Source: Thiomicrorhabdus xiamenensis | GTDB taxonomy: Bacteria; Pseudomonadota; Gammaproteobacteria; Thiomicrospirales; Thiomicrospiraceae | DNA: 64,000 nucleotides | Direction of reading: 5' to 3' | Assembly (NCBI RefSeq): GCF_013282625.1 | Contig: NZ_CP054020.1 | Span: 1,674,001-1,738,000 of the forward strand | Part shown: positions 14,500 to 31,179 of the stretch, piece by piece | How positions within the stretch are numbered: the first letter of the stretch is position 1 | Layout: each line of letters begins with the position of its first letter | Translations under genes and position numbers: made by a program | The notes under the pieces: model-generated | Told to the model about the DNA's origin: nothing | The model's database searches: none | Seen by the model: the letters and a program-made list of their open reading frames with translations, nothing else

Positions 14500-14595
14500 C
14501 CTGTTTATTGTGAATAGGCGTGTTTAATTTCTTCGCAGGGACGAAAACCGTTATTATTGGTCATGACAAATTCACCGGTCGAACATGGAGCTTTT

Positions 14596-15192
14596 ATGGG
14601 CAAACTTATCTGGCTAACGATTTTTTTTGGTGTGCTGATCTGGTCGGCAATCAACCCGGCCGATCGCTATACCTGGTGGCTTGAAGTTGCTCCAGCTCTG
14701 ATTGCACTGGCGATACTGGTATTCACTTACCGACGTTTTCCACTGACACCGTTAATCTATCAATTGATTCTTGTACACTGCATTATTCTGATGATCGGCG
14801 GGCACTACACCTATGCCGAAGTTCCGCTGTTTAACTGGATGCAGGAGTGGTTTGACTGGAGTCGCAATCATTACGACAAGGTGGGGCATTTTGTACAGGG
14901 ATTTGTTCCAGCGATGGTCGCCCGTGAACTCTTTATCCGTCTTGAGATCATCGATCCCCTGAAAAACGCCTGGCGCAACTTTCTCATCGTCAGCGTCTGT
15001 CTCGCCATCAGCGCCTTCTACGAACTGATCGAGTGGTGGGTTGCCCTGCTCTCGGAACAGGCCGCCGAGTCCTTTTTGGGAACACAGGGTTATGTCTGGG
15101 ACACCCAATCCGACATGTTTTACGCTTTGATCGGAGCCATCATGGCTCTCGCCATACTTGGCAAAACCCACGACCGACAACTTAATCGATAG
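14596..15192 (+). CDS. DUF2238-family inner membrane protein (YjdF-like)
   Basis: 198 aa with about six TM helices. Family hallmarks are INPADRYTWWLE near the N terminus, the GGHYTYAEVPLFNW stretch, HYDKVGHFVQGFVPA, FYELIEWW and WDTQSDMFYALIGA. The last three supply conserved His, Asp, Glu and Gln residues inside the membrane. The ATG at 14596 is chosen because GGAG lies 5 bases upstream and the length then fits E. coli YjdF. An ATG at 14563 is an alternative. Function of the family is unknown. It may belong to the sigma/anti-sigma unit. Confidence 0.85.
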   Translation: MGKLIWLTIFFGVLIWSAINPADRYTWWLEVAPALIALAILVFTYRRFPLTPLIYQLILVHCIILMIGGHYTYAEVPLFNWMQEWFDWSRNHYDKVGHFVQGFVPAMVARELFIRLEIIDPLKNAWRNFLIVSVCLAISAFYELIEWWVALLSEQAAESFLGTQGYVWDTQSDMFYALIGAIMALAILGKTHDRQLNR

Positions 15193-15203
15193 GCTCGAAA
15201 TAC

Positions 15204-15229
15204 AAAAGCCCCATAAAAATGGGGCCTTA
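15204..15229 (-). terminator. Terminator after the eutBC-eat operon
   Basis: On the minus strand a GGCCCCAT/ATGGGGC stem runs into TTTT. It lies between two convergent genes and may also slow + strand transcription from the DUF2238 gene. Confidence 0.7.
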
Positions 15230-15256
15230 TCTCATCTAATACAAGTTTAAGAAAAG

Positions 15257-16678
15257 TTAAGCAACCTCAGAATATCCTCCTAAATCTTCTTTAACATGAG
15301 AAAGCATTTCAAATTCCTCCTTAGCGGATTTAGCCACCAATTGTTTTTGACTGTAAATAAAGTAATAAGCTGCACCAATAGCAAATAGAATCATCGTATA
15401 GTTAAATGCTCTTGGATCAAACGCATAGACTCCAGTCAGAGCCAGCAAAGAAAGTATCAAAGCTATGCCGGATGTAAAGATGCCTCCCGGTGTTTTATAA
15501 GGACGTTCAAGTTCCGGCTGCTTAATTCTCAACAAAATATGACTCAAGGACATTAATGCATAAGAAATGGTCGCACCAACTACCGCCATTGCCAGCATAA
15601 GATCTCCCTCACCACTCAGAGAAGCGATAAAGCCTAGTACACCTGGAATAATTAACGCTCGCGACGGTACTTTCTTTTCATTTGTGATAGAAAGCGATTT
15701 TGGAAGATAGCCTGCTCTGGACAGAGCAAAGACCAGTCGGCTATAACCATAAATAATCGAGAAAAATGAGGCAATCAGTCCGACCAAGGCCAAAACGTTC
15801 ACTAAAGTTGCCAAGCCACTGTACTCAACACTATTCAGTGCATCAACCAGAGGAACCCCGCTTTCACTGATTATTTTGGCGCCTGCAGCACCCGCCAGCA
15901 GCAGCACAACCAATACCGCCGTAACAATCAGGAACAGCATTGCCGCGATAATCCCCTTTGGAACATCTTTAGCAGGTTCTTTTGATTCTTCCGCTGCCAG
16001 AGGCACACCTTCAATTGCCAGAAACAACCACATTGCAAATGGTAATGCCGCCCAGACACCATACCAGCCCATCGGCATGAACTCGGTTGCACCGAAGGCA
16101 TCGGTCACCGGAATATCAAACAAATTGCTAGCATCGAAATGCGTAATCAAGGCAAAACCCGTCGCCAAAATAGCAAATACAGCCAAGCCGCTAATCACCA
16201 TCATAATCTTCAAAGCTTCCCCGACCCCCATTAAGTGAATACCGACAAACACCAAATAAAACAACGCATATATTATGGGCCCGTTAACGCCGATAAGCGC
16301 CTCAACCGCGGAGCCAATGAAGATAACAATTGCCGCTGGCGCCAAGGCATATTCTATTAATACGGCCAGGCCGGTTAAATAGCCGCCGGTTGACCCCATT
16401 GCCTGACGGGCAAAGCTGTAGCCCCCGCCCGCAGTTGGAATCGCCGCCGACATCTCGGCCAACGAGAGGACTAAAGTGAAATACATCAGCGCCATTAAGC
16501 CCGCCGCCATCACAAACCCTCCCCAACCGGCTTGCGCCAATCCGAAATTCCAGCCGGCAAAGTCGCCGGAAATAACATAAGAGACCCCAAGGCCGGCTAA
16601 TAGAAACCAACCGGCTGTCCCCCGTTTTAATTGCCGTTTAGACATATATTCATGATGACTGCTTTCACTGTGACTCAT
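15257..16678 (-). CDS. eat: Ethanolamine permease
   Basis: A 473-aa APC-superfamily transporter with about 12 TM helices. The helix-1 region GLGVSYVISGDFAGWNFGLAQAGWGG is characteristic of Eat-type ethanolamine/amino-acid permeases, followed by AAIPTAGGGYSFARQAMG. It would import ethanolamine for the adjacent ammonia-lyase. ATG 16678 is chosen because CTTGGAGG lies 5 bases upstream; an in-frame start 4 codons earlier is unlikely. It follows eutC by 21 bp on the same strand, so eutB-eutC-eat is one operon. The C terminus is acidic and lies just before a terminator. Confidence 0.92.
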   Translation of the reverse strand: MSHSESSHHEYMSKRQLKRGTAGWFLLAGLGVSYVISGDFAGWNFGLAQAGWGGFVMAAGLMALMYFTLVLSLAEMSAAIPTAGGGYSFARQAMGSTGGYLTGLAVLIEYALAPAAIVIFIGSAVEALIGVNGPIIYALFYLVFVGIHLMGVGEALKIMMVISGLAVFAILATGFALITHFDASNLFDIPVTDAFGATEFMPMGWYGVWAALPFAMWLFLAIEGVPLAAEESKEPAKDVPKGIIAAMLFLIVTAVLVVLLLAGAAGAKIISESGVPLVDALNSVEYSGLATLVNVLALVGLIASFFSIIYGYSRLVFALSRAGYLPKSLSITNEKKVPSRALIIPGVLGFIASLSGEGDLMLAMAVVGATISYALMSLSHILLRIKQPELERPYKTPGGIFTSGIALILSLLALTGVYAFDPRAFNYTMILFAIGAAYYFIYSQKQLVAKSAKEEFEMLSHVKEDLGGYSEVA

Positions 16679-16699
16679 ACTTACCTCCAAGGTTCTTCA

Positions 16700-17581
16700 T
16701 CAATCAAAAAGGTTTACCAAAAAATTTTCTGTTTCGTTCTTGTGTTCGATTACATGCTCATCACTGCGATCCTTTAAGTGAACACCGGAAAGTTGTTTCC
16801 GGCGTGACTCTCGAAGCAGATAAAATGCACGTTCAGCAGCTTCTTTGAAACTTAACCCCATCGGCCGGACATTAGAAATACAGTTTCTACAGGCGTCCGT
16901 CAGACCAACCCGAGGCGCCCAGGTCAAATAAAGTCCAAGGCTATCCGGAGAACTTAACCCCGGTCTTTCACCGATCATCACTAAAACTGCTTTAGCCCGT
17001 AAACTCTCGGCAACTTCATCGCCAATGGCGACCCGCCCCTGTTGCACAACGCTCAAAGGCGCAAGGCGCCACTCTTGACCATCCTGTGTAAGCTCCTCAA
17101 GCAACGCAGCCAAAAACGGCGTTACATTGTTTTGCACCGCTTTGGAGGAGAGTCCGTCAACGACAACCAGAGCCAAGTCGTATTCTTTCCCCGGGCCTGA
17201 GCAATAAGTCGAGAGTAAATCCCGCATGGAATGTTGCAATCGGCGCCCAAGATCCGGACGCTGAAGATAGTGCATGCGATCTTTTGCCTGAGAAGCCAAT
17301 AAAATGGGGGCAGAAGGAAATGTGGCTTGCCGTATAGTCGCCAGTTGCGCCAATAGAGCCGTTACATCCAACGGCGTATGAACCGCATCCCTCGCCTGAG
17401 CGTGCGCCAGCTGGAACTCAAGCATCTCTTCCGTCGGCAAACTTACGCCGGCCCGCCCTAAACCGATTCTGGCCGATGTAAATTGACGTAAACTTTGCCA
17501 GGGGTTTTCGGTCACACTTGCCGTCTCGCACACTTTCTCTACTCGAGATGTTGTTGATTCATGCCGCTGCGTTTGCTTCAT
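16700..17581 (-). CDS. eutC: Ethanolamine ammonia-lyase small subunit
   Basis: The small (beta) subunit of adenosylcobalamin-dependent ethanolamine ammonia-lyase, which splits ethanolamine to acetaldehyde and ammonia. 293 aa. SARIGLGRAGVSLPTEEMLEFQLAHAQARDAVH is the family N-terminal core, VDGLSSKAVQNN and the GERPGLSSPDSLGLYLTW stretch line the cobalamin site, and the late RNCISNVRP completes it. The ~35 residues before NPWQSLRQ are polar and variable. The ATG overlaps the eutB stop by 4 bp, giving tight translational coupling. Confidence 0.95.
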   Translation of the reverse strand: MKQTQRHESTTSRVEKVCETASVTENPWQSLRQFTSARIGLGRAGVSLPTEEMLEFQLAHAQARDAVHTPLDVTALLAQLATIRQATFPSAPILLASQAKDRMHYLQRPDLGRRLQHSMRDLLSTYCSGPGKEYDLALVVVDGLSSKAVQNNVTPFLAALLEELTQDGQEWRLAPLSVVQQGRVAIGDEVAESLRAKAVLVMIGERPGLSSPDSLGLYLTWAPRVGLTDACRNCISNVRPMGLSFKEAAERAFYLLRESRRKQLSGVHLKDRSDEHVIEHKNETENFLVNLFD

Positions 17582-18975
17582 GCTGACACCCTCTTTAGAG
17601 TTGCCGCGAAAGGTTCCGGTATGTCTGAAGCCAAAGTGAACTTACCGCTATCGGAAAAAATTTCCATTCGTTGCAACCACTCGGCAAACTCCGGTGCCGG
17701 AGCCAGATCCAATACGCGGCGCAAATAAAGCGCGTCATGAAAGGAAGTCGTCTGATAATTCAGCATAATGTCATCCGATCCTGGAATCCCCATTACAAAG
17801 GAACAGCCCGCAACCCCCAGAAGAGTCAACAGCGTGTCCATATCGTTCTGGTCGGCTTCGGCATGATTCGTATAACAAACGTCACAGCCCATAGGGAGAC
17901 CGAGTAATTTGCCGCAGAAATGATCCTCAAGAGCGGCACGGGTAATTTGCTTTCCATCAAACAGATATTCAGGCCCAATAAACCCGACAACCGTATTGAC
18001 CAGTAAGGGCGAAAATTTACGCGCCACTGCGTAAGCGCGAGCTTCACAAGTCTGCTGATCAACATTATGGTGCGCATTGGCTGACAAGGCGCTCCCCTGC
18101 CCGGTTTCAAAATACATCACATTTTGACCGACGGTTCCTCGCTTAAGCTCCAGTGCAGCCTGTTGCGCATCGCCCAACATTGCAAGATTAAAACCGAAGC
18201 TACTGTTGGTCGCTTCGGTACCGCCGATGGATTGAAAAACCAAATCCACTGGAGCGCCGCGTTCGATTGCTTCCACTGTATTGGTTACATGAGTCAAAAC
18301 ACAGGACTGTGTTGGTATCTGATAACCCTGAATTACGTCATCAAGCATCTTCAATAACTTAACTGTCTGGTTAACATTGTCGGTTGCCGGATTAATACCG
18401 ATAACCGCATCCCCATTACCGTAAAGCAATCCATCAAAAATGCTGGCTGCAATGCCGTTCAAATCATCGGTCGGATGATTCGGCTGCAAGCGAGTCGACA
18501 AGCGCCCCGGTAGACCGATGCTGCTGCGGAAAGCCGTGCTGACCCGACACTTCTTAGCCACCAGAATCAGATCTTGATTACGCATTATTTTGCTGACAGC
18601 TGCGGCCATTTCCGGCGTAATTCCCGTACTTACCTTGCTTAGGACATCGCTATCGCAATAATCACTCAGTAACCAATTACGAAAGTCTCCGACAGTCAAA
18701 TGCGCTATTTCGCTAAAGGCTTCGAGATCGTGTTCATCCATAATCAAACGCGTTACCTCATCTTCTTCATAAGGAATCAACGCCTCATTCAGAAAATTTT
18801 GTAAAGGCACTTCTGCTAGCGCTAACTGCGCTGCACTGCGTTCAACAGCCGAACAAGCAATCACACCAGCCAGACGGTCACCCGAACGTGCTGGTGTCGC
18901 CTTAGCCATTAAATCGGCCAGATTATTAAAGCGATATCGAGTTTGCCCAAAACTATAGTGGTAAGCGGCGCACAT
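17578..18975 (-). CDS. eutB: Ethanolamine ammonia-lyase large subunit
   Basis: The catalytic alpha subunit, a TIM barrel that binds adenosylcobalamin and ethanolamine. Conserved stretches are SGDRLAGVIA, RLQPNHPTDD, GDAVIGINPATDNV, YFETGQGSALSANAHHN, NTVVGFIGPEYLFDGKQI, GCDVCYTNHAEADQND and PGSDDIMLNYQTTSFHD. The ATG at 18975 gives 465 aa and an N terminus (YHYSFGQTRYRFNNL) aligned with E. coli EutB. AAGGAG lies 11 bases upstream. The frame runs 17 codons further to a TTG, which I reject. The gene is divergent from the AraC-type regulator at 19270. No microcompartment shell genes are present, so acetaldehyde is released freely. I see no AdoCbl riboswitch upstream. Confidence 0.96.
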   Translation of the reverse strand: MCAAYHYSFGQTRYRFNNLADLMAKATPARSGDRLAGVIACSAVERSAAQLALAEVPLQNFLNEALIPYEEDEVTRLIMDEHDLEAFSEIAHLTVGDFRNWLLSDYCDSDVLSKVSTGITPEMAAAVSKIMRNQDLILVAKKCRVSTAFRSSIGLPGRLSTRLQPNHPTDDLNGIAASIFDGLLYGNGDAVIGINPATDNVNQTVKLLKMLDDVIQGYQIPTQSCVLTHVTNTVEAIERGAPVDLVFQSIGGTEATNSSFGFNLAMLGDAQQAALELKRGTVGQNVMYFETGQGSALSANAHHNVDQQTCEARAYAVARKFSPLLVNTVVGFIGPEYLFDGKQITRAALEDHFCGKLLGLPMGCDVCYTNHAEADQNDMDTLLTLLGVAGCSFVMGIPGSDDIMLNYQTTSFHDALYLRRVLDLAPAPEFAEWLQRMEIFSDSGKFTLASDIPEPFAATLKRVSA

Positions 18976-19269
18976 TAACGTTGCGACTCCTTTCAACAAA
19001 ACCTTAGATAGAAAAGATGAATGCAAGCCTTGAAGGCGGTATCAGGAATAAACCTTGCTAACTACCTGCTGTCAAACGCATAGTTAGTACGTCTTTCCAA
19101 CCACTACTTGGCTGCATTCACCTTTATTTTGAGGACAAGCCATAAATATTCCGAGCGGATATCAAGTTTTGGCAAATCAAAATAAATACTTTATTTTCAA
19201 ATACTTAATACGATCCATTTATTTCTTTAAGACAAAAGAAATATTCTTGAATCATGGAGTGGGAGAAAA

Positions 19270-20235
19270 ATGCACCAAGAACAAAATTTACTGCGTCCAA
19301 AAAGATGCATTTTAGAGACCAATGATCTAGAGAATCAGGCTGAAGGCTTAACCAATTGGCAGCAAGAATACGATCAAATCAGCAACGGTAAGTTTTTTGG
19401 TCGAATAGAAAAAGTTGAAAGCGGCGGCATGCATTTCTTTAGCGAATACACCAGCCACACCCTGCATCAGGACTGCCAGATCTGGCAAAATGCAGTCTGG
19501 TTCGGTATTCCACAATTAAATCAGGATATATGTAGGATAAACGGTCAAATAATAGAACAAAATGCCATCGCCTGTCGTAACAGTAAAAGCAGTTTTGAAC
19601 TGATTACACCCGAAAATTTCACCATATACGGCATAGTGCTGGAAGAGAAACTACTGCAAAGGCTTTCCGATAAGCAGGGAATTAATTTAATTGAAAACGC
19701 CCATCTGGGCATTCAGGAACAATTTCGTGTTAACAGTGAACAAAACTATCTTCTGCAATCTATTTTAAGCCGCTTAACTCACCCTCAAGACAGTCAGGTG
19801 GATCAAAGAATCCCTCTGGACTTTTTGACTAACGCTCTGTTAAGCGCCCTGCCACAAGAATTAAGTCGAGAGTATTCTTGTACTCCAAGCTATAAACAAC
19901 GAAAACTTGTCGTTGACCGAGTGCGCGACTACCTAAGCCAATGCCGCGACGACCAACCAATTTCAATGCAAGAGTTATGTGAAATCGCTTGCGTCAGTCG
20001 CCGAACCCTGCAATATAGTTTCGAAACCATTCTCGGCTGCAGCCCTCTCAAGTTTTTACGCGCACTGCGTTTAAACCAGGTACGAAGAAAACTGAAATCG
20101 TCACAGGAAGATGAAACCATTGCCGATATCGCATCCTATTGGGGGTTTTGGCATGCTGGTCAGTTCAGTCGCGATTACAAACTATTATTCGGTGAATCAC
20201 CTTCCCAGACACTGGCAAAAGCCAAAAAAGATTAG
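19270..20235 (+). CDS. eutR: AraC-family transcriptional regulator of ethanolamine use (EutR-like)
   Basis: 321 aa. The C-terminal ~110 residues form two helix-turn-helix motifs: ISMQELCEIACVSRRTLQYSFE and TIADIASYWGFWHAGQFSRDY, the second being the AraC family signature ending in FGESPSQTL. The N-terminal ~200 residues are the sensing domain; in EutR this binds ethanolamine and B12. The start is ATG 19270 with GGAGTGGGAG upstream. It is divergent from eutB across ~290 bp, the expected place for its operator. The specific EutR name rests on neighbourhood as well as family. An Arg-rich recognition helix (SRRTLQYSF) is visible. Confidence 0.88.
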   Translation: MHQEQNLLRPKRCILETNDLENQAEGLTNWQQEYDQISNGKFFGRIEKVESGGMHFFSEYTSHTLHQDCQIWQNAVWFGIPQLNQDICRINGQIIEQNAIACRNSKSSFELITPENFTIYGIVLEEKLLQRLSDKQGINLIENAHLGIQEQFRVNSEQNYLLQSILSRLTHPQDSQVDQRIPLDFLTNALLSALPQELSREYSCTPSYKQRKLVVDRVRDYLSQCRDDQPISMQELCEIACVSRRTLQYSFETILGCSPLKFLRALRLNQVRRKLKSSQEDETIADIASYWGFWHAGQFSRDYKLLFGESPSQTLAKAKKD

Positions 20236-20318
20236 AGCGGAATAAATCCGCTCTTAAAACGCAAAAGACTTGAACAGGTTTCCATCCCTGCAAATATTTT
20301 CAGACATGAGGCAGAGGT

Positions 20319-20423
20319 TTACTCACCGACCTTAGGGCCGATCCAGATCTGCTGAATATTAACAAACTCCATAATGCCGTGCGGCCCGAGTTCGCGGCCG
20401 TAGCCGGAGCGTTTAATCCCCCC
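20319..20423 (-). pseudogene. Aldehyde dehydrogenase C-terminal remnant
   Basis: Reading the minus strand in the frame ending at TAA 20319 gives about 34 residues: GGIKRSGYGREL, then GIMEFVNIQQIWIG. This is the closing segment of an NAD(P)-aldehyde dehydrogenase, in which the KRSGxGRELG and EFVN motifs are diagnostic. The rest of the gene (~450 residues) is gone. It abuts the M20 amidohydrolase fragment in a different frame, so the two were joined by a deletion. In other ethanolamine loci an aldehyde dehydrogenase handles the acetaldehyde, so this may be the lost partner of EutBC. Confidence 0.75.
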
Positions 20424-20662
20424 TGCTCGGCAATCGGTAAAGCATCCATATCCGCTCGAAGAGCAATATGATCACCGGGACGATTGATTCCTAAAATGGC
20501 TACCGTTCCCAAAGTCGCACAGGATCGCCATTCTATTCCCCAATCATCAAGACAGCTACGAATCTTCTCAGCGGTTTGCTCTTCTTCCCAGGTTAATTCC
20601 GGATATTGATGAAACCAATGACGCAATTGAACCGCTTGTTGAACGGCCTCTTTCCAATCCAC
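20424..20662 (-). pseudogene. M20-family amidohydrolase, N-terminal remnant
   Basis: From GTG 20662 (AAGGAG 7 bases upstream, so the expression signals survive) the frame gives ~80 residues of an M20/IAA-amino-acid-type amidohydrolase. These include RHWFHQYPELTWEEEQTAEKI, the family's N-terminal signature, and HIALRADMDALPIAEQ, where the metal-site Asp lies. It then crosses into the aldehyde dehydrogenase fragment in the wrong frame and stops at 20300. The catalytic and dimerisation domains are missing, so it is non-functional. Confidence 0.8.
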
Positions 20663-20929: not shown

Positions 20930-21006
20930 TGGCGCGCCCGAGAAGATTCGAACTCCCGGCCTTCCCCTCCGGAGGGGGACGCTCTATCCAGCTGAGCTAC
21001 GGGCGC
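20930..21006 (-). tRNA. tRNA-Arg (anticodon CCG)
   Basis: A complete cloverleaf on the minus strand: acceptor GCGCCCG/CGGGCGC, D arm GCTC...GAGC, anticodon stem TCCCC/GGGGA with loop CTCCGGA, and T arm GGGAG-TTCGAAT. The discriminator is G and CCA is encoded. The length is 77 nt. Confidence 0.95.
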
Positions 21007-21300: not shown

Positions 21301-21783
21301 ATGTGTCGAGATCACGATCATCATAAATGGATGCAGCAAGCGATCGATTTATCGCTTGAAAAAATGAATGCCGGATTTGGCGGCCCTTTTGGTGCCGTTA
21401 TCGTCAAAGACAATAAAATTATTGCGCAAGGTTATAATCAGGTCACCTCACTAATGGATCCAACCGCACATGCCGAAATCACGGCTATCCGTAGCGCATG
21501 CCAAACATTAAATAGCTTTGACCTGTCCGGCTGTGAAATCTACACCAGTTGCGAGCCCTGCCCGATGTGTTTGAGCGCCATCTACTGGGCACGTCTCGAC
21601 AAAATTTACTACGCCAATACGCGACAAGACGCGGCGAAAATCGGTTTTGACGATGAATACTTTTACAAAGAGGTGTGCTCTCCCATTGAACAGAGAAATA
21701 TCCCTTGTATACAGATCGGTCATGAGCAAGGACTCGAAGCCTTTAAAGAATGGCAAAACAAACCGGACAAAGTTCTCTATTAA
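21301..21783 (+). CDS. guaD: Guanine deaminase-type nucleoside/nucleobase deaminase
   Basis: A 160-aa zinc deaminase of the CDA fold. It has HAEITAI (zinc His and catalytic Glu) and SCEPCPMC (two zinc Cys). The IGFDDEYFYKE segment and an N-terminal NAGFGGPFGAVIVKD resemble Bacillus-type guanine deaminase GuaD rather than TadA or cytidine deaminase. GuaD turns guanine into xanthine plus ammonia. No purine genes are adjacent. Specificity for guanine is by similarity of pattern only. Confidence 0.85.
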   Translation: MCRDHDHHKWMQQAIDLSLEKMNAGFGGPFGAVIVKDNKIIAQGYNQVTSLMDPTAHAEITAIRSACQTLNSFDLSGCEIYTSCEPCPMCLSAIYWARLDKIYYANTRQDAAKIGFDDEYFYKEVCSPIEQRNIPCIQIGHEQGLEAFKEWQNKPDKVLY

Positions 21784-22257: not shown

Positions 22258-25200
22258 TTATTTGCTCAGATCATCTTCCAATTCACTTTCGATAATCTCT
22301 TTCAGAGTTTCATCTGGTGCAGGAGCTTCAGCGACCCCTTCAGGAGCAGCTGTCGTACCTTCTGGAGCGACATCAGGAGACGTTCCTGTCTCACCGGCAA
22401 GCAGATCTTGACCTTCACTCTCAGCGCCTCCTTCAGCAGGCACTTCAGTTGCTACATCGACATCTCCTTCGCCTTCGGCTTGGACGAGGTCTTCCACCGA
22501 AACGCTTTCAACTCTGGCACTTGCTTGAGGTACCATCATGGCTTCGGTTCCGGCAATCGCTTCGAAATCGAATGACTCATCCATTGCCATCATGGCTGCA
22601 TCTACACTGGAAATCACCTCGATATTAAGCGTCGATGTATCCGTATCTTGAGGCGCAGTATCGTTCACATCAACCACGCTATAGCTGATTTCAGGCACTG
22701 AACCGACATAGCCGGCTTCCGGTGTAAAGCTGTAGTTACCATCGGCTTCAACCGTTACCGTTCCGTAACCGGTCATTACCGCGGTATCGCCTGCATCATA
22801 AGTAGTGCCTTCGACCGTAAAGTCATTTACTTCATGGGTTTGATCACTATCATTATCAATGACATTGTCTAGCAGGTTACCTGTCAGAACCGTGCCCTCC
22901 TCAACAATTGCCGATTCGCCGACGTCTTCGAACATCGTATCGTCGTTATCTTCATTGACCTGATCAATACCTACCAGAATTGTGCCATTTGCACTATCGC
23001 CATCCTGATCCGTTCCGGTCGCATCGAAGCCCAGAGCAACATCACTTGGATACAGAGCACTGAAGCCGTCAACGACAATACCGAAGTTTTTACCGGTAAC
23101 ATTACCTGCGCCAGTATCGGCAATGACTCGAACGTAAGCGTAATTCTCATCACCGATAACAGTATAGGTGTAATCGGCAGCAACCAAGATACCAGCACCG
23201 TCAGTATCGATGGAAACATTCCCCAACGTATCTTCAATCCGAACATCAACATCGACCAGATTGCCGTCCAAATCATAGGCTTCAACCGTAAAGGTTGCAC
23301 CTTTCAAATCACTGGCAATCGAAGGGCCACCCGGAATGATGAACGCAAAGTTATTGATAACACTTTCCGTCAAATCCGCTGGGGAAGAAACGGTGATGCC
23401 CAGATCATCGATAACCGTATTACTTGATCCGTTAAGTCCGGAATTTTCATAGAAATCGAACTGCAACCACTCACCGCTATTTAACGATTGACCGCTACCT
23501 GCACCAAACTCGTGTGAGTCAGTATTAACAGTTGTGCTCGCGCTGACGATAACATCGACTCCAGAACCGACAGGATCTGTGTCGGTGCTGCCCAAGTTAG
23601 TCAGACCGAAGTAATCGGCGTTACCACCGGAAACATCCTGGTTGTTTTCAAACGGTACATCATCATCCTGCACCACAAACAAACCATCTACCGCATAGAA
23701 GTCATAAGTACCGTCAGTTGAATCAATCGATAGTGTAAACACAACCATTCCGTCAGCAACCCCTTGAACCTCGGTCGCACTGACTTGATTCCACATCACC
23801 GGATCAAAGTCATTACCAAAGTAAAGAAGCTGACCATCTGCAGTTGTCACCTGACCACCGTCACTGTAGTTACTGATATCTAAGTTATACCCGTTTACAG
23901 CAGCTCGGTCTGCACCAGCCGAGAAGTTCAAAGATACGTCTGCAACCGTTTCGCCTGGTGTTACCACGGAAATTTCCGGCATGAAATCAATTGGCGTATC
24001 ATCATTAATCGTCAGATCGAATGACGTTGTCGCCGGAGATCCATCGGAATCTTCCACCAAAACATCAATCGGAATCTGTAGATTCAACTCTTCCGTATCA
24101 TCCGCCAGGTTCACATCGTGATGACGAACTGCCTGATAGAGTGAGACATCATAGTCGGCACCGGAGTTATCAATGTTATACAACTCCACAGTGAAGACCA
24201 GATAACCTTCATCACCGGGACTGGTACCCTCTTTATAACCAACCAAGGTATGACTTACTTCGTCCCAAGTGGTCAGAACACGGGAACCGTCCAGCGTCGT
24301 AATGCCGGTTGCGTTCAACTCGCTGGCGTAAGTTGTCGAAAGAGCAACGCTACCCAATGTATCGTTACCCAAGACGAAAGCCAATGAGCCCGTTGTATCA
24401 GGAACAATATCACCAACCCCACCTGGGTTACCGATAGTGCCAATATCATCTTCATCAACAGAAACTGTTTCAGCCGTAACGGACGGATTATCCGAATCAT
24501 CCAATATGGTTGTCGTAACAGGACTGCCGATGGAAACATCCTCAAAGTTACCACCAAAGGCGTCCGAAATACTCACCATAAAATCTTCGGGATTTTCCGC
24601 ATTCGGATCATCCAGCGTTTGTACGCTAAAGGTCACCTCGTCACCATTCCCGTCGGTTGGATAGGTATCACCGGCTTTGATGACAAAGTTCTGGGATTCG
24701 GTCACAAGATCGCCTGAATCTGTATCGATATGACTGCTCACCACTGTAACCGTCATATCTGTTTCCGGAGGATTATCAACGCTCAAATGATAGACGGCTG
24801 CTTCACCTTCTACCACAGAGGCAGGACCGGAAATACTCACAGTTGTTGTGTCAATTGAATCAACAATTAAGGTTGATGCGCTGGCGCCACTGTAATCAAC
24901 GTTTTCGTAGTTACCGCCAGTCGTGCCGGTCACATTGACATCAATACTGTCGCTGTCCACATACACATCTTCGAACTCTGCTTCATCAATAGTAACGGAG
25001 GTACTACCGGAGAACTGGTTCGCCAGAATAGTAATACTTTCGCCGTTTGACAGATCAACCGTCATGTCGGTCTGCGGTGCGTTATCCACACTGGCAACGT
25101 AAGTGATCACACCACCGTCTTCAGTCAGTTGTGGCGTCGCCGTCAAACTGACCGTTGTGGTATCAATGGTATCGACAATCGCAGTCGAAGCACTGGCACC

Positions 25201-27555
25201 GCTGTAATCAACGTTTTCGTAGTTACCGCCAGTCGTGCCGGTCACATTGACATCAATACTGTCGCTGTCCACATACACATCTTCGAACTCTGCTTCATCA
25301 ATAGTAACGGAGGTACTACCGGAGAACTGGTTCGCCAGAATAGTAATACTTTCGCCGTTTGACAGATCAACCGTCATGTCGGTCTGCGGTGCGTTATCCA
25401 CACTGGCAACGTAAGTGATCACACCACCGTCTTCAGTCAGTTGTGGCGTCGCCGTCAAACTGACCGTTGTGGTATCAATGGTATCGACAATCGCAGTCGA
25501 AGCACTGGCAGCGCTGTAATCAACGTTTTCGTAGTTACCGCCAGTCGTGCCGGTCACATTGACATCAATACTGTCGCTGTCCACATACACATCTTCGAAC
25601 TCTGACTCATCAATAGTAACGGAGGTACTGCCCGAGAACTGGTTCGCCAGAATGGTAATACTTTCGCCGTTTGACAGATCAACCGTCATGTCGGTCTGCG
25701 GTGCGTTATCCACGCTGGCGGTATACAGAATCACACCACCGTCTTCAGTAAGCTGTGGCGTCGCCGTCAAACTGACCGTTGTGGTATCAATGGTATCAAC
25801 AATCGCAGTCGAAGCACTGGCGCCACTGTAATCAACGTTTTCGTAGTTACCGCCAGTCGTGCCGGTCACATTGACATCAATACTGTCGCTGTCCACATAC
25901 ACATCTTCGAACTCTGCTTCATCAATAGTAACGGAGGTACTACCGGAGAACTGGTTCGCCAGAATAGTAATACTTTCGCCGTTTGACAGATCAACCGTCA
26001 TGTCGGTCTGCGGTGCGTTATCCACACTGGCAACGTAAGTGATCACACCACCGTCTTCAGTCAGTTGTGGCGTCGCCGTCAAACTGACCGTTGTGGTATC
26101 AATGGTATCGACAATTGCAGTCGAAGCACTGGCGCCACTGTAATCGACATTTTCGTAATTACCACCAGTCGCACCGGTCACAGTAACATCAATACTGTCA
26201 CTGTCTTGATAAACATCCTCAAAATCCGATTCATTGACAGTAAACTGTGTACTACCAAAGTTTTGGCCCGCCAAAATAGTAATACTCTGACCATTGGACA
26301 GATCCACAGTCAAGTCCGTTTGAGGTGGGTTGTCCACCGCGGCAATATAGGTAATTACACCACCATCTTCAGTCAAGCTTTCTGTTGCCGCCAAACTGAC
26401 GGTGGTCGTATCAATCGTATCAACGATAAAGGTTGATGCGGTTCCGTAAGTCGTATAGTCATACTCACCTGCGTCACCACCGGTTGCATTAGTGATTTTT
26501 ACAATGATCTCGTCGCTGTCTTTATAAACATCTTCAAAGTCAGATTCTTCAACCATGGTTGAAACCGAACCTGAAGTTTCGCCTTCGGCAATCGTAACAG
26601 ACAGGCCATTATCCAGTGTTACCTCTACATCGCTGCCTTGAGGCGCTTCATTAATGGTAACGGTATAAACGATTTCACCGCCGTCTTCGGTTAATTCCGG
26701 CGTGGCTTCAAGGCGTAAAACAGCGTTATCAGGAACAACGGTAATTCCAACTACCGCATCGGAATAGTTTCCATTACCATCGGTGATTTGATAAGAAAAA
26801 GAATCACTACCGTTGTAATCCTGATTCGGAGTATAGGTATAGGTACCGTTTCCGTTGTCCACAAGTGAACCGTTTTCAGGCTGTGTGACCGAAACGATTG
26901 TCAGGTCATCACCGTCAATATCGGTGTCGTTTGCCAACAAATCTTCAGAGGTAATTACAAGACTGGTATCTTCTTGTGTGATAAAGGCATCATCCGCAGC
27001 AACCGGAGGGTTCTGCAATAGATCCTCGCCTTCCGGAGAGATCAATGCATCCTGCTCAGCAAAAGGATCGGACTCGAATGCCAGAGGATCGGTTGTTTCA
27101 ACCACACGTGCCACCTGAGGCACACCACCTTCGGCCTCATATTGAGCACCTTCGGCATCATCCAGACTGTAAATTTCAAGCGTCATGGCCCCGCCTGCTT
27201 CAGCGGCACCACCACCGGCAGCTGTTGCATCCAAAGCTTCTAACAAATCACCGCCTTCAGGGTTATCAATTGCTGCCAGCGTCTCTTCAAGAGAGCCCGG
27301 CTCAATCACATTGTCACCTTCGGAAGCAACCTGCTCTGACAAAATACTATCCGTCAAAGCCAGAGTCTGATTTGGGCCTATATCAACCTTTTGACCATTG
27401 GTCAGCATAAGCGTGACAGCACCATCCACCCCTGTCTGAATAACATCGCCTAAATTTAAAATATCAGCAACTTCCACTAATCTGGAATTACCATTCTGAT
27501 CATAGACAAGTGCTGAGTTTTGTACGTTGATAATGGTTGCGACTTGAGTTGACAT
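22258..27555 (-). CDS. LapA-type giant adhesin 1 with retention module
   Basis: A 1765-aa acidic, cysteine-poor surface protein. Residues 1-80 form a LapA-type retention module (MSTQVATIINVQNSALV, LGDVIQTGVDGAVTLML, VDIGPNQTLALT). TAAG at 111-114 matches the LapG cleavage motif. Next comes a Bap/cadherin-like domain (~181-275, ending DSFSYQITDGNG). Seven Ig-like repeats of ~104 aa follow, four of them near-identical. A T1SS-143-like region, a late Bap-type domain (LTGNLLDNVIDNDSDQTHEV) and an acidic tail ending PDETLKEIIESEL complete it. No RTX nonapeptides or vWFA domain were seen. GGAGG lies 6 bases upstream of the ATG, and the promoter is shared with the paralogue at 35.8 kb. It is probably exported by the system encoded at 36-41.7 kb and held in the outer membrane. 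Confidence 0.88.
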   Translation of the reverse strand: MSTQVATIINVQNSALVYDQNGNSRLVEVADILNLGDVIQTGVDGAVTLMLTNGQKVDIGPNQTLALTDSILSEQVASEGDNVIEPGSLEETLAAIDNPEGGDLLEALDATAAGGGAAEAGGAMTLEIYSLDDAEGAQYEAEGGVPQVARVVETTDPLAFESDPFAEQDALISPEGEDLLQNPPVAADDAFITQEDTSLVITSEDLLANDTDIDGDDLTIVSVTQPENGSLVDNGNGTYTYTPNQDYNGSDSFSYQITDGNGNYSDAVVGITVVPDNAVLRLEATPELTEDGGEIVYTVTINEAPQGSDVEVTLDNGLSVTIAEGETSGSVSTMVEESDFEDVYKDSDEIIVKITNATGGDAGEYDYTTYGTASTFIVDTIDTTTVSLAATESLTEDGGVITYIAAVDNPPQTDLTVDLSNGQSITILAGQNFGSTQFTVNESDFEDVYQDSDSIDVTVTGATGGNYENVDYSGASASTAIVDTIDTTTVSLTATPQLTEDGGVITYVASVDNAPQTDMTVDLSNGESITILANQFSGSTSVTIDEAEFEDVYVDSDSIDVNVTGTTGGNYENVDYSGASASTAIVDTIDTTTVSLTATPQLTEDGGVILYTASVDNAPQTDMTVDLSNGESITILANQFSGSTSVTIDESEFEDVYVDSDSIDVNVTGTTGGNYENVDYSAASASTAIVDTIDTTTVSLTATPQLTEDGGVITYVASVDNAPQTDMTVDLSNGESITILANQFSGSTSVTIDEAEFEDVYVDSDSIDVNVTGTTGGNYENVDYSGASASTAIVDTIDTTTVSLTATPQLTEDGGVITYVASVDNAPQTDMTVDLSNGESITILANQFSGSTSVTIDEAEFEDVYVDSDSIDVNVTGTTGGNYENVDYSGASASTLIVDSIDTTTVSISGPASVVEGEAAVYHLSVDNPPETDMTVTVVSSHIDTDSGDLVTESQNFVIKAGDTYPTDGNGDEVTFSVQTLDDPNAENPEDFMVSISDAFGGNFEDVSIGSPVTTTILDDSDNPSVTAETVSVDEDDIGTIGNPGGVGDIVPDTTGSLAFVLGNDTLGSVALSTTYASELNATGITTLDGSRVLTTWDEVSHTLVGYKEGTSPGDEGYLVFTVELYNIDNSGADYDVSLYQAVRHHDVNLADDTEELNLQIPIDVLVEDSDGSPATTSFDLTINDDTPIDFMPEISVVTPGETVADVSLNFSAGADRAAVNGYNLDISNYSDGGQVTTADGQLLYFGNDFDPVMWNQVSATEVQGVADGMVVFTLSIDSTDGTYDFYAVDGLFVVQDDDVPFENNQDVSGGNADYFGLTNLGSTDTDPVGSGVDVIVSASTTVNTDSHEFGAGSGQSLNSGEWLQFDFYENSGLNGSSNTVIDDLGITVSSPADLTESVINNFAFIIPGGPSIASDLKGATFTVEAYDLDGNLVDVDVRIEDTLGNVSIDTDGAGILVAADYTYTVIGDENYAYVRVIADTGAGNVTGKNFGIVVDGFSALYPSDVALGFDATGTDQDGDSANGTILVGIDQVNEDNDDTMFEDVGESAIVEEGTVLTGNLLDNVIDNDSDQTHEVNDFTVEGTTYDAGDTAVMTGYGTVTVEADGNYSFTPEAGYVGSVPEISYSVVDVNDTAPQDTDTSTLNIEVISSVDAAMMAMDESFDFEAIAGTEAMMVPQASARVESVSVEDLVQAEGEGDVDVATEVPAEGGAESEGQDLLAGETGTSPDVAPEGTTAAPEGVAEAPAPDETLKEIIESELEDDLSK
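24847..26094. repeat. Four tandem 312-bp repeats in adhesin 1
   Basis: Four near-identical 312-bp units, each coding 104 aa from TTVSLTATPQ to VDTIDT. A few silent or single-residue changes occur (VITYVAS versus VILYTAS, EAEF versus ESEF). Divergent copies flank the array on both sides, so the identical core is a recent amplification or has been gene-converted. Confidence 0.92.
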
Positions 27556-27606
27556 GGTGTCCTCCTACTCGGCCTGAAAAACGAATTTTATTCTTTCTGT
27601 GATTTA

Positions 27607-27684
27607 ATTCTAATTAAGAGAAAACAGTATTTCATCGTACAAAAGTAGCAATTGCCTGTCATTTACTCCATTTCTTGATCGTAA
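27607..27684 (-). promoter_or_regulatory. Promoter and upstream element of adhesin 1
   Basis: On the minus strand, -35 ATGAAA (27630-27635) and -10 TAGAAT (27607-27612) are 17 bp apart. A 12-bp block at 27629-27640 and a 17-bp block at 27668-27684 (TTACGATCAAGAAATGG) recur, 39 bp apart, in front of the second adhesin. TACGAT occurs in both blocks. Predicted 5' UTR is ~45 nt. Confidence 0.6.
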
Positions 27685-27814
27685 ATCATTTTTAGAATGA
27701 AACCCTTCTTCAGACTTTTATTTGACATCAATTTACGTTTTAGGAAGAACTTTGTAACCAGAAAACCCTTCGGATATGGCGTTTTTCCAACTGCTGTTAT
27801 AAGGAGCAAAAAAC

Positions 27815-27844
27815 AAAAAAGCCCCGCTTAAAACGGGGCTTTCT
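27815..27844 (-). terminator. Terminator after adhesin 2
   Basis: Minus strand AAAGCCCCG/CGGGGCTTT stem running into TTTTTT, about 25 bp past the adhesin 2 stop. It separates the two adhesin genes. Confidence 0.88.
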
Positions 27845-27867
27845 ATCTCCAGTCTAACGTTTAATCA

Positions 27868-30800
27868 TTAATTATTGTCTAGCTCGCTATCAATAATCTG
27901 TTTCATGGTTTCATCAGGCCCTTGAACTGCCTCGGAACCTGCAGGGTCAACTGCACCACCAGGAACGCCACCAGCCGAACTGTGATCAGGCACGCCATCA
28001 GGAATATTGGCATTGCCCGCACCGTTTTCGGAAGCTTCCTGAGCAAGGAGATCCTGACCACCTTCATCCGATCCTTCAGCAGGTGATTCAGAACCGAGGG
28101 CAACCTCTCCTTCTGTCTCAGTCTGAACAAGATCTTCAAACGAACCATCAAATTCCGTTCTTAATTCTGCGGAAAGCGTGGTAATTCCCGCTCCAGTTTC
28201 CAACATCGCGTAGTCGAACGATTCTTCAACCATCATGGCGGCAACAGGGGTTGCTACAACTTCGATATTGAGCGTTGAAGTATCGGTATCTTCAGGTGCG
28301 GTATCGTTTACATCCAGCACACTATAGGTAACTTCAGGAACAGCCCCTACGTAACCGGTCTCAGGTGTAAAGCTATAATCACCATTTCCATCTACAGTAA
28401 GGCTACCCACTCCGCTAATGACGGCTGTATCCCCTGCAGCGTAGGTTGTTGCATCACCATCGACTGTGAAGTCGGTTACCTGGTGAGTCTGATCAGCATC
28501 ATTGTCAATAACATTCAATAACAGATTGCCGGACAGAACCGTATCTTGTTCGACAGAAGCCGATTCACTGACATCCTCAAACATTGAGTCATCGTTACCA
28601 TCACTGACCTGATCAATACCAACCACAATAGTTCCGCTGGCACTGTCACCATCCATATCGGTTGCTGTCGCATCAAAGCTCAAAGCGACATCACTCGGAT
28701 TAATTGAACTGAATCCGGAAATGACAACGCTAAAGTTTGTACCTGTGCTATTTCCGTCAACACCTGTAATAACAACATTAGCATAAGGTTCATCACCGAC
28801 TACTTTGTAGTCATACCCTTCTATCGCTGTATAGGAACCATTTAGATTGGTTGCAACCGGAATACCGTTACTATCTACAACCGTAACAGCTACTGCATCG
28901 CCATTAGAGTCATAAGCGGTTACAGAGAATGTAGGCGTTGTATTACTCGCTGTATCTGAAACCGTGAAAGTGAAATTATTAATTTCGCTTTCCGTTGAAC
29001 CAATTCGCGGATCGGTTTCACTACCACCATTCAATGTTGAATCGGAGTAGAACTCGAAATTAAGGAACTGGCCAGCATTTAACGAAGTATTACCTGTACC
29101 AAATTCTACCGAGTTAGTATTTACTGCCCCAGTACCAGTCACGACAACATCCGTATCGGTTCCGCCAAGATCGACAATACCGTAGTAGGTATCGTTACCC
29201 GCTTGCACCGGCTGATCATTAGTAAACGGAACATCGTCAGTTTGAACCAGGAACTGTCCATCAACGGCACTGAAGTTATAGGTACCGTCAGAATTAATGC
29301 TGAGAGTAAACACAGCCTGCTCATCCACTGTGCCGGCATCAACAACCCCTTGTACTTCAGTTGAAGAAACACTGTTCCATGTAATTTCTTTGAATTCAGG
29401 GCCGAAGAACAGCAGCTGTCCATCTGCATTGGTTACTTGCTGACCGTCCGCAACACTGATGCTATAACCATCCGCTCCAGCACCATCCGCACCTGCAGAG
29501 AAGTTCAGCGGAACATCTGTAACGCCATCGCCAGGGGCAACCGCAGAGATATCTGCCATAAAGTTGATTGGCGTATCATCATCAATGGTTAGGTCAAATG
29601 AAGTTGTTGCCTGCAATCCACCAGATGCATTGACGACTACATCAATTGGAAGAACAAGGTCATTCGCTTCGGTATCATCGGCACTGGCTGGTTCGTGATG
29701 CTGTAGCGGCTGATAAAGGGTGATCTCATAACTTGCCCCTGAATTATCCAATGAGGTCACTTCAACCTCAAAGACCAAGTAGTCAGGCAGTCCTTCATCA
29801 CCGGACGGAGCACCATCTTTATAACCGATTAAGGTATTGCTGACTGGATCCCATAGGGTCAGCACAGCCGTACCGTCTACAGTGCTGAGTCCAGTTTGAT
29901 TTAGGCCACCCACATTGGTTGAAAGCATAATACTATCTAGATTCTGGCCACCCAAATCATATGTCAATGTTCCGGAAATGACCGGGGTGGTTAGATCATC
30001 CACTCCGCCTGGATTACCAACAACGCTTGCAATATCATCCTCGTCAACAGAAATATCTGTTGCTAATGCATCGTTATCTAAAATGGTACCGGTTGCAGCT
30101 ACACCGCCTACAGTGACGTCGTAGAACTCTGTACCTTCATAATCAGCATCTTCTTCAGCATAGGTGGTGATATCAAACTCGGTCACACCGGCTGGTACCG
30201 TAATGGTACCGTCGCCATTGTTTACAACACCGTTGGTGAACTGCAGATTACTCCAGTCTTCCGGCTCGGTGGTGTTGTCCGCAATGCTGAAACTGTAGGT
30301 TTCATCATTGATGCTTTCACCACTCATGGTGACGGTATGCGTCAAGGTACTGCCTTCCGGTTGAGTATCGGAAGTCACACTTTCAACTGTGATTTCGCTG
30401 GTATCGGTAATGGTACCGGTCGCCGCAACACCGCCTACCGTGACGTCGTAGAACTCGTCGCCTTCATAGTTCGGGTCGGTCGCAGCATCGGTGGTGATAT
30501 CAAACTCGGTCACACCGGCAGGCACCGTAATGGTACCGTCGCCATTGTTTACAACACCGTTGGTGAACTGCAGATTACTCCAGTCTTCCGGCTCGGTGGT
30601 GTTGTCCGCAATGCTGAAACTGTAGGTTTCATCATTGATGCTTTCACCACTCATGGTGACTGTGTGAGTCAAGGTACTGCCTTCCGGTTGAGTATCGGAA
30701 GTCACACTTTCAACTGTGATTTCGCTGGTATCGGTAATGGTACCGGTCGCCGCAACACCGCCTACCGTGACGTCGTAGAACTCGTCGCCTTCATAGTTCG

Positions 30801-31179
30801 GGTCGGTCGCAGCATCGGTGGTGATATCAAACTCGGTCACACCGGCTGGTACCGTAATGGTACCGTCGCCATTGTTTACAACACCGTTGGTGAACTGCAG
30901 ATTACTCCAGTCTTCCGGCTCGGTGGTGTTGTCCGCAATGCTGAAACTGTAGGTTTCATCATTGATGCTTTCACCACTCATGGTGACGGTATGCGTCAAG
31001 GTACTGCCTTCCGGTTGAGTATCGGAAGTCACACTTTCAACTGTGATTTCGCTGGTATCGGTAATGGTACCGGTCGCCGCAACACCGCCTACCGTGACGT
31101 CGTAGAACTCGTCGCCTTCATAGTTCGGGTCGGTCGCAGCATCGGTGGTGATATCAAACTCGGTCACACCGGCAGGCAC
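27868..31179 (-). CDS. LapA-type giant adhesin 2, C-terminal part (separated by frameshift)
   Basis: This frame continues adhesin 2 after the one-base deletion at about 31196. It holds the rest of repeat 11, repeats 12-14, a junction (TYAEEDADYEGTEF, then ILDNDAL) and a T1SS-143-like region (DDLTTPVISGTLTYDLGG to FDLTIDDDTPI). A late Bap-type domain (LSGNLLLNVIDNDADQTHQV) and an acidic tail ending PDETMKQIIDSELDNN follow. These late domains are clearly paralogous to those of adhesin 1. The leading GTG at 31179 lies inside a repeat and has no ribosome binding site, so it is unlikely to be translated alone. The intact product would be about 2660 aa. No RTX repeats. Confidence 0.8.
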   Translation of the reverse strand: MPAGVTEFDITTDAATDPNYEGDEFYDVTVGGVAATGTITDTSEITVESVTSDTQPEGSTLTHTVTMSGESINDETYSFSIADNTTEPEDWSNLQFTNGVVNNGDGTITVPAGVTEFDITTDAATDPNYEGDEFYDVTVGGVAATGTITDTSEITVESVTSDTQPEGSTLTHTVTMSGESINDETYSFSIADNTTEPEDWSNLQFTNGVVNNGDGTITVPAGVTEFDITTDAATDPNYEGDEFYDVTVGGVAATGTITDTSEITVESVTSDTQPEGSTLTHTVTMSGESINDETYSFSIADNTTEPEDWSNLQFTNGVVNNGDGTITVPAGVTEFDITTYAEEDADYEGTEFYDVTVGGVAATGTILDNDALATDISVDEDDIASVVGNPGGVDDLTTPVISGTLTYDLGGQNLDSIMLSTNVGGLNQTGLSTVDGTAVLTLWDPVSNTLIGYKDGAPSGDEGLPDYLVFEVEVTSLDNSGASYEITLYQPLQHHEPASADDTEANDLVLPIDVVVNASGGLQATTSFDLTIDDDTPINFMADISAVAPGDGVTDVPLNFSAGADGAGADGYSISVADGQQVTNADGQLLFFGPEFKEITWNSVSSTEVQGVVDAGTVDEQAVFTLSINSDGTYNFSAVDGQFLVQTDDVPFTNDQPVQAGNDTYYGIVDLGGTDTDVVVTGTGAVNTNSVEFGTGNTSLNAGQFLNFEFYSDSTLNGGSETDPRIGSTESEINNFTFTVSDTASNTTPTFSVTAYDSNGDAVAVTVVDSNGIPVATNLNGSYTAIEGYDYKVVGDEPYANVVITGVDGNSTGTNFSVVISGFSSINPSDVALSFDATATDMDGDSASGTIVVGIDQVSDGNDDSMFEDVSESASVEQDTVLSGNLLLNVIDNDADQTHQVTDFTVDGDATTYAAGDTAVISGVGSLTVDGNGDYSFTPETGYVGAVPEVTYSVLDVNDTAPEDTDTSTLNIEVVATPVAAMMVEESFDYAMLETGAGITTLSAELRTEFDGSFEDLVQTETEGEVALGSESPAEGSDEGGQDLLAQEASENGAGNANIPDGVPDHSSAGGVPGGAVDPAGSEAVQGPDETMKQIIDSELDNN

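Follow-up and report, generated by a model that had tools for sequence, protein, structure and literature searches.

A short ORF composed of two gene remnants

The window, that is the whole stretch of 64,000 nucleotides of Thiomicrorhabdus xiamenensis DNA that was analysed, contains on its minus strand an ORF of 120 amino acyl residues (20300-20662) that starts with GTG and is preceded by AAAGGAG, a stretch resembling a ribosome-binding site. In profile searches, codons 1-80 of this ORF (20662-20423) match positions 1-78 of the NCBIfam model NF038260 for DoeB2 (E 4e-30) and also the amidohydrolase model TIGR01891 (E 2e-18). With 105 bits over 78 of the 378 model positions, the DoeB2 remnant is too short to reach the cut-off of 550, and its 80 residues are 88.75% identical to the corresponding part of an intact gene of 389 codons in the congener G026. 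The DNA that follows belongs to the end of an aldehyde dehydrogenase (ALDH) gene. The frame starting at 20423 reads GGIKRSGYGRELGPHGIMEFVNIQQIWIGPKVGE and then a stop (20423-20319, 34 codons), and of the residues encoded by the first 33 of these codons 32 are identical to those that close the undamaged ALDH of G026. The ORF itself runs beyond the junction to 20300 in the wrong frame, the stop of the ALDH gene (doeC) at 20319 being in the other frame. Family models and the alignment with G026 thus confirm what the first-pass annotation had read from the letters, namely an amidohydrolase of about 80 residues that crosses at a run of six G into the final ~34 codons of an ALDH in another frame, with the expression signals (GTG start and AAAGGAG stretch) left intact.

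The G6 run is unique, as nowhere else in the whole window do six G or six C follow one another. It was considered as a product of the junction and rejected as such, as the intact doeC of G026 already contains the same run. One G, at 20423, can be assigned to either parent gene. Near the join there is an imperfect short repeat, TGCCGAGCAG on the doeB2 side of the scar versus TGCCGAGCGG in doeC of G026, and the deletion join may sit at this repeat. The number of G residues at the repeat does not agree with a simple in-register exchange, and G026 stands in for the ancestor in this comparison, so that our claim is limited to one G shared by both sides. A promoter scan found 1 site versus 1.0 expected, and a terminator scan found 4 versus 1.3 expected. 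On the other side of the deaminase-like gene (Table 1), two very long minus-strand ORFs (22258-31179) consist by eye of many near-identical repeats of about 100 amino acyl residues, presumably of the kind found in large secreted adhesins.

Table 1. Features at and around the scar; positions are those of the window.
Feature	Position	Strand	Basis or remark
Membrane-protein gene (named by eye), directly after doeC in G026	14557..15192	+	94% identity
Stretch with the eut cassette, without counterpart at the G026 locus	15180..20325	.	blastn of window versus L025
eat, ethanolamine permease	15257..16690	-	TIGR00908, 501.5 bits, cut-off 381.75
eutC	16700..17581	-	NF003971, 337 bits, cut-off 230
eutB	17578..18966	-	NF011649, 725 bits, cut-off 554
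eutR-like AraC-type regulator	19270..20235	+	Best model NF007522 (EutR), 195 bits, below cut-off 319
Fused, frame-shifted ORF of 120 residues (scar)	20300..20662	-	ORF list; part after the junction in wrong frame
doeC remnant, last 34 codons of ALDH and stop, out of frame with doeB2	20319..20423	-	Alignment with G026
G6 run at the junction	20418..20423	-	Also in intact doeC of G026
doeB2 remnant, codons 1-80 of M20 N-acetyl-diaminobutyrate deacetylase, with GTG and ribosome site	20423..20662	-	NF038260, E 4e-30
tRNA-Arg(CCG), immediately upstream of the doe locus as in G026	20930..21006	-	
Deaminase-like gene (named by eye), adjoins doeB2 in G026 too	21301..21783	+	93.75% identity

The undeleted locus in a congener

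Among congeners, the nearest match to the DoeB2 N-terminus is that of G026 (88%), in which doeB2 (389 residues), doeD (418), doeA (426), and doeC (462) lie between the same two flanking genes as in the window, the membrane-protein gene beyond doeC and, at the doeB2 end, the deaminase-like gene together with tRNA-Arg(CCG). Three of the four products exceed the cut-offs of their models: DoeB2 with 627 bits versus 550, the ectoine hydrolase DoeA (NF038259) with 758 versus 575, and the diaminobutyrate transaminase DoeD (NF006733) with 606 versus 438, the last of these also reaching 546 bits with TIGR02407 for EctB, just below 552. The fourth belongs to the ALDH family, and its best model is the succinate semialdehyde dehydrogenase (SSADH)-like NF006915 with 489 of 730 bits; among the 25 of 40 NCBIfam families listed, no model above its cut-off names it, and with the ExaC model NF050026 it scores 238 bits, far below the cut-off of 900. 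The lost ALDH is DoeC, the putative aspartate-semialdehyde-oxidising enzyme of the operon, a candidate identity given by operon position and by none of the family models listed.

In a blastn comparison of the window with the G026 locus, the match stops at L025:4583 and resumes at L025:9443, the break falling at the scar. Measured on G026, with the shared G counted once, the loss amounts to 4,867 bp and comprises codons 81-389 of doeB2, the whole of doeD and doeA, and codons 1-428 of doeC; codon 429 of doeC now follows directly on codon 80 of doeB2. That a deletion had fused parts of an M20 and an ALDH gene had been proposed beforehand, and the undeleted locus in G026 bears this out. The extent then estimated, at least ~1.3 kb of the ALDH gene and most of the amidohydrolase gene, stands as a minimum, but the real size is about 4.9 kb and two further whole genes are gone. 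Intact M20 and ALDH genes, to be sought in relatives after eutR according to the first-pass annotation, are indeed both present in G026, as parts of the doe operon, but the eut cassette is absent there.

In 4 of 9 complete doe loci scanned (L025:4040-4116, L027:4637-4713, L026:15775-15973, and L032:9453-9529), one end of the operon has a tRNA gene no more than about 400 bases away, and these tRNAs differ from one another. The doe operon may move between tRNA-side sites.

Distribution of doe genes and of the fused ORF

An 81-residue query for the DoeB2 N-terminus was searched in 95 genomes, consisting of the window's own genome, 31 congeners, and others of the family and class, and it matches in 22 of them. 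Seven of the 31 other congeners have a match, all of them with frames of 387-421 residues; seven of the 31 are less than 90% complete, and absence from these weighs less. The four genes occur in the order doeB2-doeD-doeA-doeC at 13 of 15 doeB2 loci retrieved together with broad flanks (9 of 11 plus 4 of 4), a count that leaves out seven class-level DoeB2 matches at 28-48% identity. At the two exceptions doeB2 stands alone; one (L033) is a second copy in G023, and the other (L034) is from G013, where doeD-doeA-doeC is situated on another contig. In eight other congeners, the 20 kb fetched around the membrane-protein gene contain no match to doe, eut, or the deaminase gene, and therefore G026 is the only one among the congeners examined that shares the doe position of the window.

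Among the 32 genomes of the genus, only the window genome has one DNA match that spans the two halves of the scar; matches from the other genomes extend past the junction by no more than about 14 bases. The same short ORF in relatives under purifying selection had been named beforehand as the mark of a real gene; no such ORF turned up in the 31 other congeners, with the completeness given above.

The neighbouring ethanolamine cassette

The eat-eutC-eutB/eutR cassette lies between the last codons of doeC and the 3' end of the membrane-protein gene, and the last codons of the latter are not the same in the window as in G026. EutB, for which G026 has no match at E 1e-10, is present in 11 of the 95 genomes, the own one included, and five others (G055, G057, G018, G021, and G027) carry the same eut type with eutR and eat. 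The EutB of the window is 82% identical to that of two genomes of another genus and 79-80% identical to those of the same-type congeners, and this closeness to another genus hints at a horizontal arrival of the cassette. Matches were obtained in 265 plasmid records; in the 10 of these that were listed, the matches show 66-73% identity and lie over eut genes in six and over no annotated feature in four.

As ethanolamine lyase makes acetaldehyde, the first-pass annotation had suggested that the deletion may have taken its usual oxidising partner. The ALDH remnant and the eut genes do adjoin in the window, and two of the five same-type relatives (G021 and G027) possess an ExaC-type acetaldehyde dehydrogenase elsewhere in their genomes, whereas the window genome has none. 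The scores with NF050026 are 909 bits for G014, 902 for G021, and 835 for G027 versus the cut-off of 900, each of these enzymes being given as 467 residues only. However, the lost type of ALDH closes the four-gene doe operon at the 13 of 15 loci mentioned above, the G026 locus has no eut cassette, and in the 20 kb retrieved around eut in the five same-type relatives, some 9 kb to either side, neither a doe gene nor an ALDH was detected with DoeC and the general ALDH as ALDH queries at E 1e-5. Three of these five lack both DoeC and ExaC, and G021 and G027 possess doe and eut modules in separate places. Around the more distant EutB of G059, G014, G031, and G076, the same 20-kb fetch yielded no ALDH in any of the four; near EutB of G059 there is a 25% aminotransferase match to DoeD. 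From at least 595 named eutB loci, 80 were kept, and nine of these 80 have an ALDH (E 1e-10) in the fetched flank, several flanks being short; in about four of the nine the ALDH is close by, three of them in Pseudomonas. We therefore consider it very improbable that the deletion removed an acetaldehyde dehydrogenase serving the adjacent ethanolamine pathway. The proposal is functionally tempting, but a piece of an ALDH beside ethanolamine genes is no evidence for a lost acetaldehyde enzyme, and the eut module is a neighbour of the scar and not part of the deleted operon.

How the window genome might deal with acetaldehyde can be outlined from its gene content. It encodes one full-length ALDH (C1:409487-410848), which is SSADH-like and above no NCBIfam cut-off among the matches listed, a split weak ALDH-family match that is a putative ProA, and acetyl-CoA synthetase. 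It gave no match to TIGR03215, the model for acylating acetaldehyde dehydrogenase, but this absence carries little weight, as the model responded in 2 of 14 controls and in none of them above its cut-off. The search of the rest of the genome for another acetaldehyde dehydrogenase, as recommended at the outset, has thus returned one general ALDH and one ProA-like frame. The same set is present in G055, G057, and G018, which have neither DoeC nor ExaC, the ProA-like match of G057 containing two stops. Orthologues of the general ALDH (76-99% identity) are encoded in all nine relatives examined, including G026, which lacks eut. Between the window genome and G026 this single general ALDH (L001:1501-2862, L185) is 99% identical, in contrast to about 94% at the protein level for two doe-flanking genes. 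Acetaldehyde derived from ethanolamine is probably handled by the general ALDH together with acetyl-CoA synthetase, or else ethanolamine probably serves mainly as a nitrogen source.

The available text of a report on Acinetobacter baumannii (PMC9426561) describes eutBC without a metabolosome, ethanolamine as sole nitrogen source, and a lyase that functioned in Salmonella without EutE, from which it follows, as far as that text goes, that eutBC can do without a partner enzyme of its own. The module in the window resembles the A. baumannii module, as described in that text, in being a non-microcompartment eutBC; its own gene content is eat-eutC-eutB plus an eutR-like regulator.

The eut cassette is a separate module with no visible link to the scar. 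It has a size (5.1 kb) similar to that of the deletion, and one might imagine that the tRNA-adjacent site swapped modules, doe being inactivated while eut arrived beside it. We regard such a swap as unlikely; if it did take place, an organic nitrogen source would have been exchanged and ectoine left as a one-way product.

Origin and age of the scar

We are confident that the ORF at 20300-20662 is a non-functional deletion scar of an operon of the doeBDAC type for the degradation of ectoine, a salt protectant, and as such it is an ordinary and well-resolved case of gene loss. In the lineage leading to the window genome, the loss of about 4.87 kb, presumably by illegitimate recombination, joined codon 80 of doeB2 out of frame to codon 429 of doeC and removed doeD and doeA entirely. 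With start codon, ribosome site, and leader intact, a useless peptide of about 120 residues may still be made.

The deletion is read from the assembled sequence of one strain, and a doe operon that is present but was collapsed or dropped during assembly would be an alternative. Such an artefact is hardly credible, since the window genome is a single contig of 2.59 Mb at 100% completeness, the break points on G026 share only short similarity, and no stray doeA or doeB2 start was found elsewhere in the genome.

Neither remnant contains an internal stop or an indel, and the deletion looks recent on account of this undecayed state. Relative to G026, dN and dS are 0.058 and 1.08 for the doeB2 remnant and 0.013 and 0.20 for the doeC remnant, and four flanking genes have dS values of 0.41-0.50. 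The nine amino acid differences between the doeB2 part and G026 fall on the window genome in two cases and on G026 in five, two being ambiguous; here six relatives decided the polarity by simple majority, and the evidence is weak. As most differences are not on the window lineage, most of the divergence of the remnants seems to predate the deletion. The dS of the doeB2 remnant is about twice that of the flanking genes (Fisher p 0.003, from rounded counts) and is not accounted for by simple vertical descent, whereas that of the doeC remnant is below theirs; the raised value may stem from an exchange with a relative at this place.

That the junction created a genuine small gene under selection deserves practically no credence, despite the intact start signals of the fused ORF and the low dN/dS of its doeB2 part. 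The ORF was found in 1 of 32 genomes of the genus, selection that acted while the genes were still whole accounts for the low dN/dS, and the ORF ends the DoeB2 part before the HACGHDGH stretch of the intact protein, which we take to have a role in metal binding, and continues to a C-terminal end in the wrong frame.

Ectoine synthesis genes and the probable loss of the doe pathway

The window genome contains ectC within a series of ORFs read as ectA-ectB-ectC-aspartokinase, the other three names being given by eye. It contains no second DoeB2 N-terminus at E 0.001, nothing resembling DoeA beyond an 18.7-bit match of 21% identity, and one other M20-family gene (C1:1412766-1413692), which does not match the DoeB2 N-terminus at E 0.001. 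With synthesis kept and neither a second DoeB2 N-terminus nor DoeA present, the organism can probably make ectoine yet not degrade it by the doe pathway; other ectoine catabolic routes were searched for by homology only. The deletion would accordingly have left ectoine synthesis in place while degradation by the doe route was lost, and the phenotype we infer is a loss of ectoine catabolism.

Synthesis without degradation is common in the genus rather than rare, as 15 of the 23 genomes of the genus that have ectC lack any match to DoeB2. What the scar offers is a clean and apparently recent case from nature in which ectoine catabolism was lost from a genome that encodes ectoine synthesis, and raising the yield of ectoine by preventing its degradation is the subject, as far as the available text goes, of PMC11067125. 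Our literature search found no paper on DoeB2 with ectoine, on ectoine degradation with doeA in sulfur-oxidizing bacteria, or on loss or pseudogenes of doe genes, the one paper listed for the last of these having another subject by its title.

The order doeBDAC is that of the ectoine-degradation operon of halotolerant methylotrophs (PMC7192451). According to the part of that paper available to us, every halophilic or halotolerant methylotroph that makes ectoine had homologues of the genes for its degradation. Within the same limits, the operon considered here resembles theirs in its B-D-A-C order, in its set of enzymes, and in having no regulator in the cluster, and the window genome also has ectoine synthesis genes as they do. 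Unlike the methylotroph operon as described there, that of the window genome has kept only its two ends.
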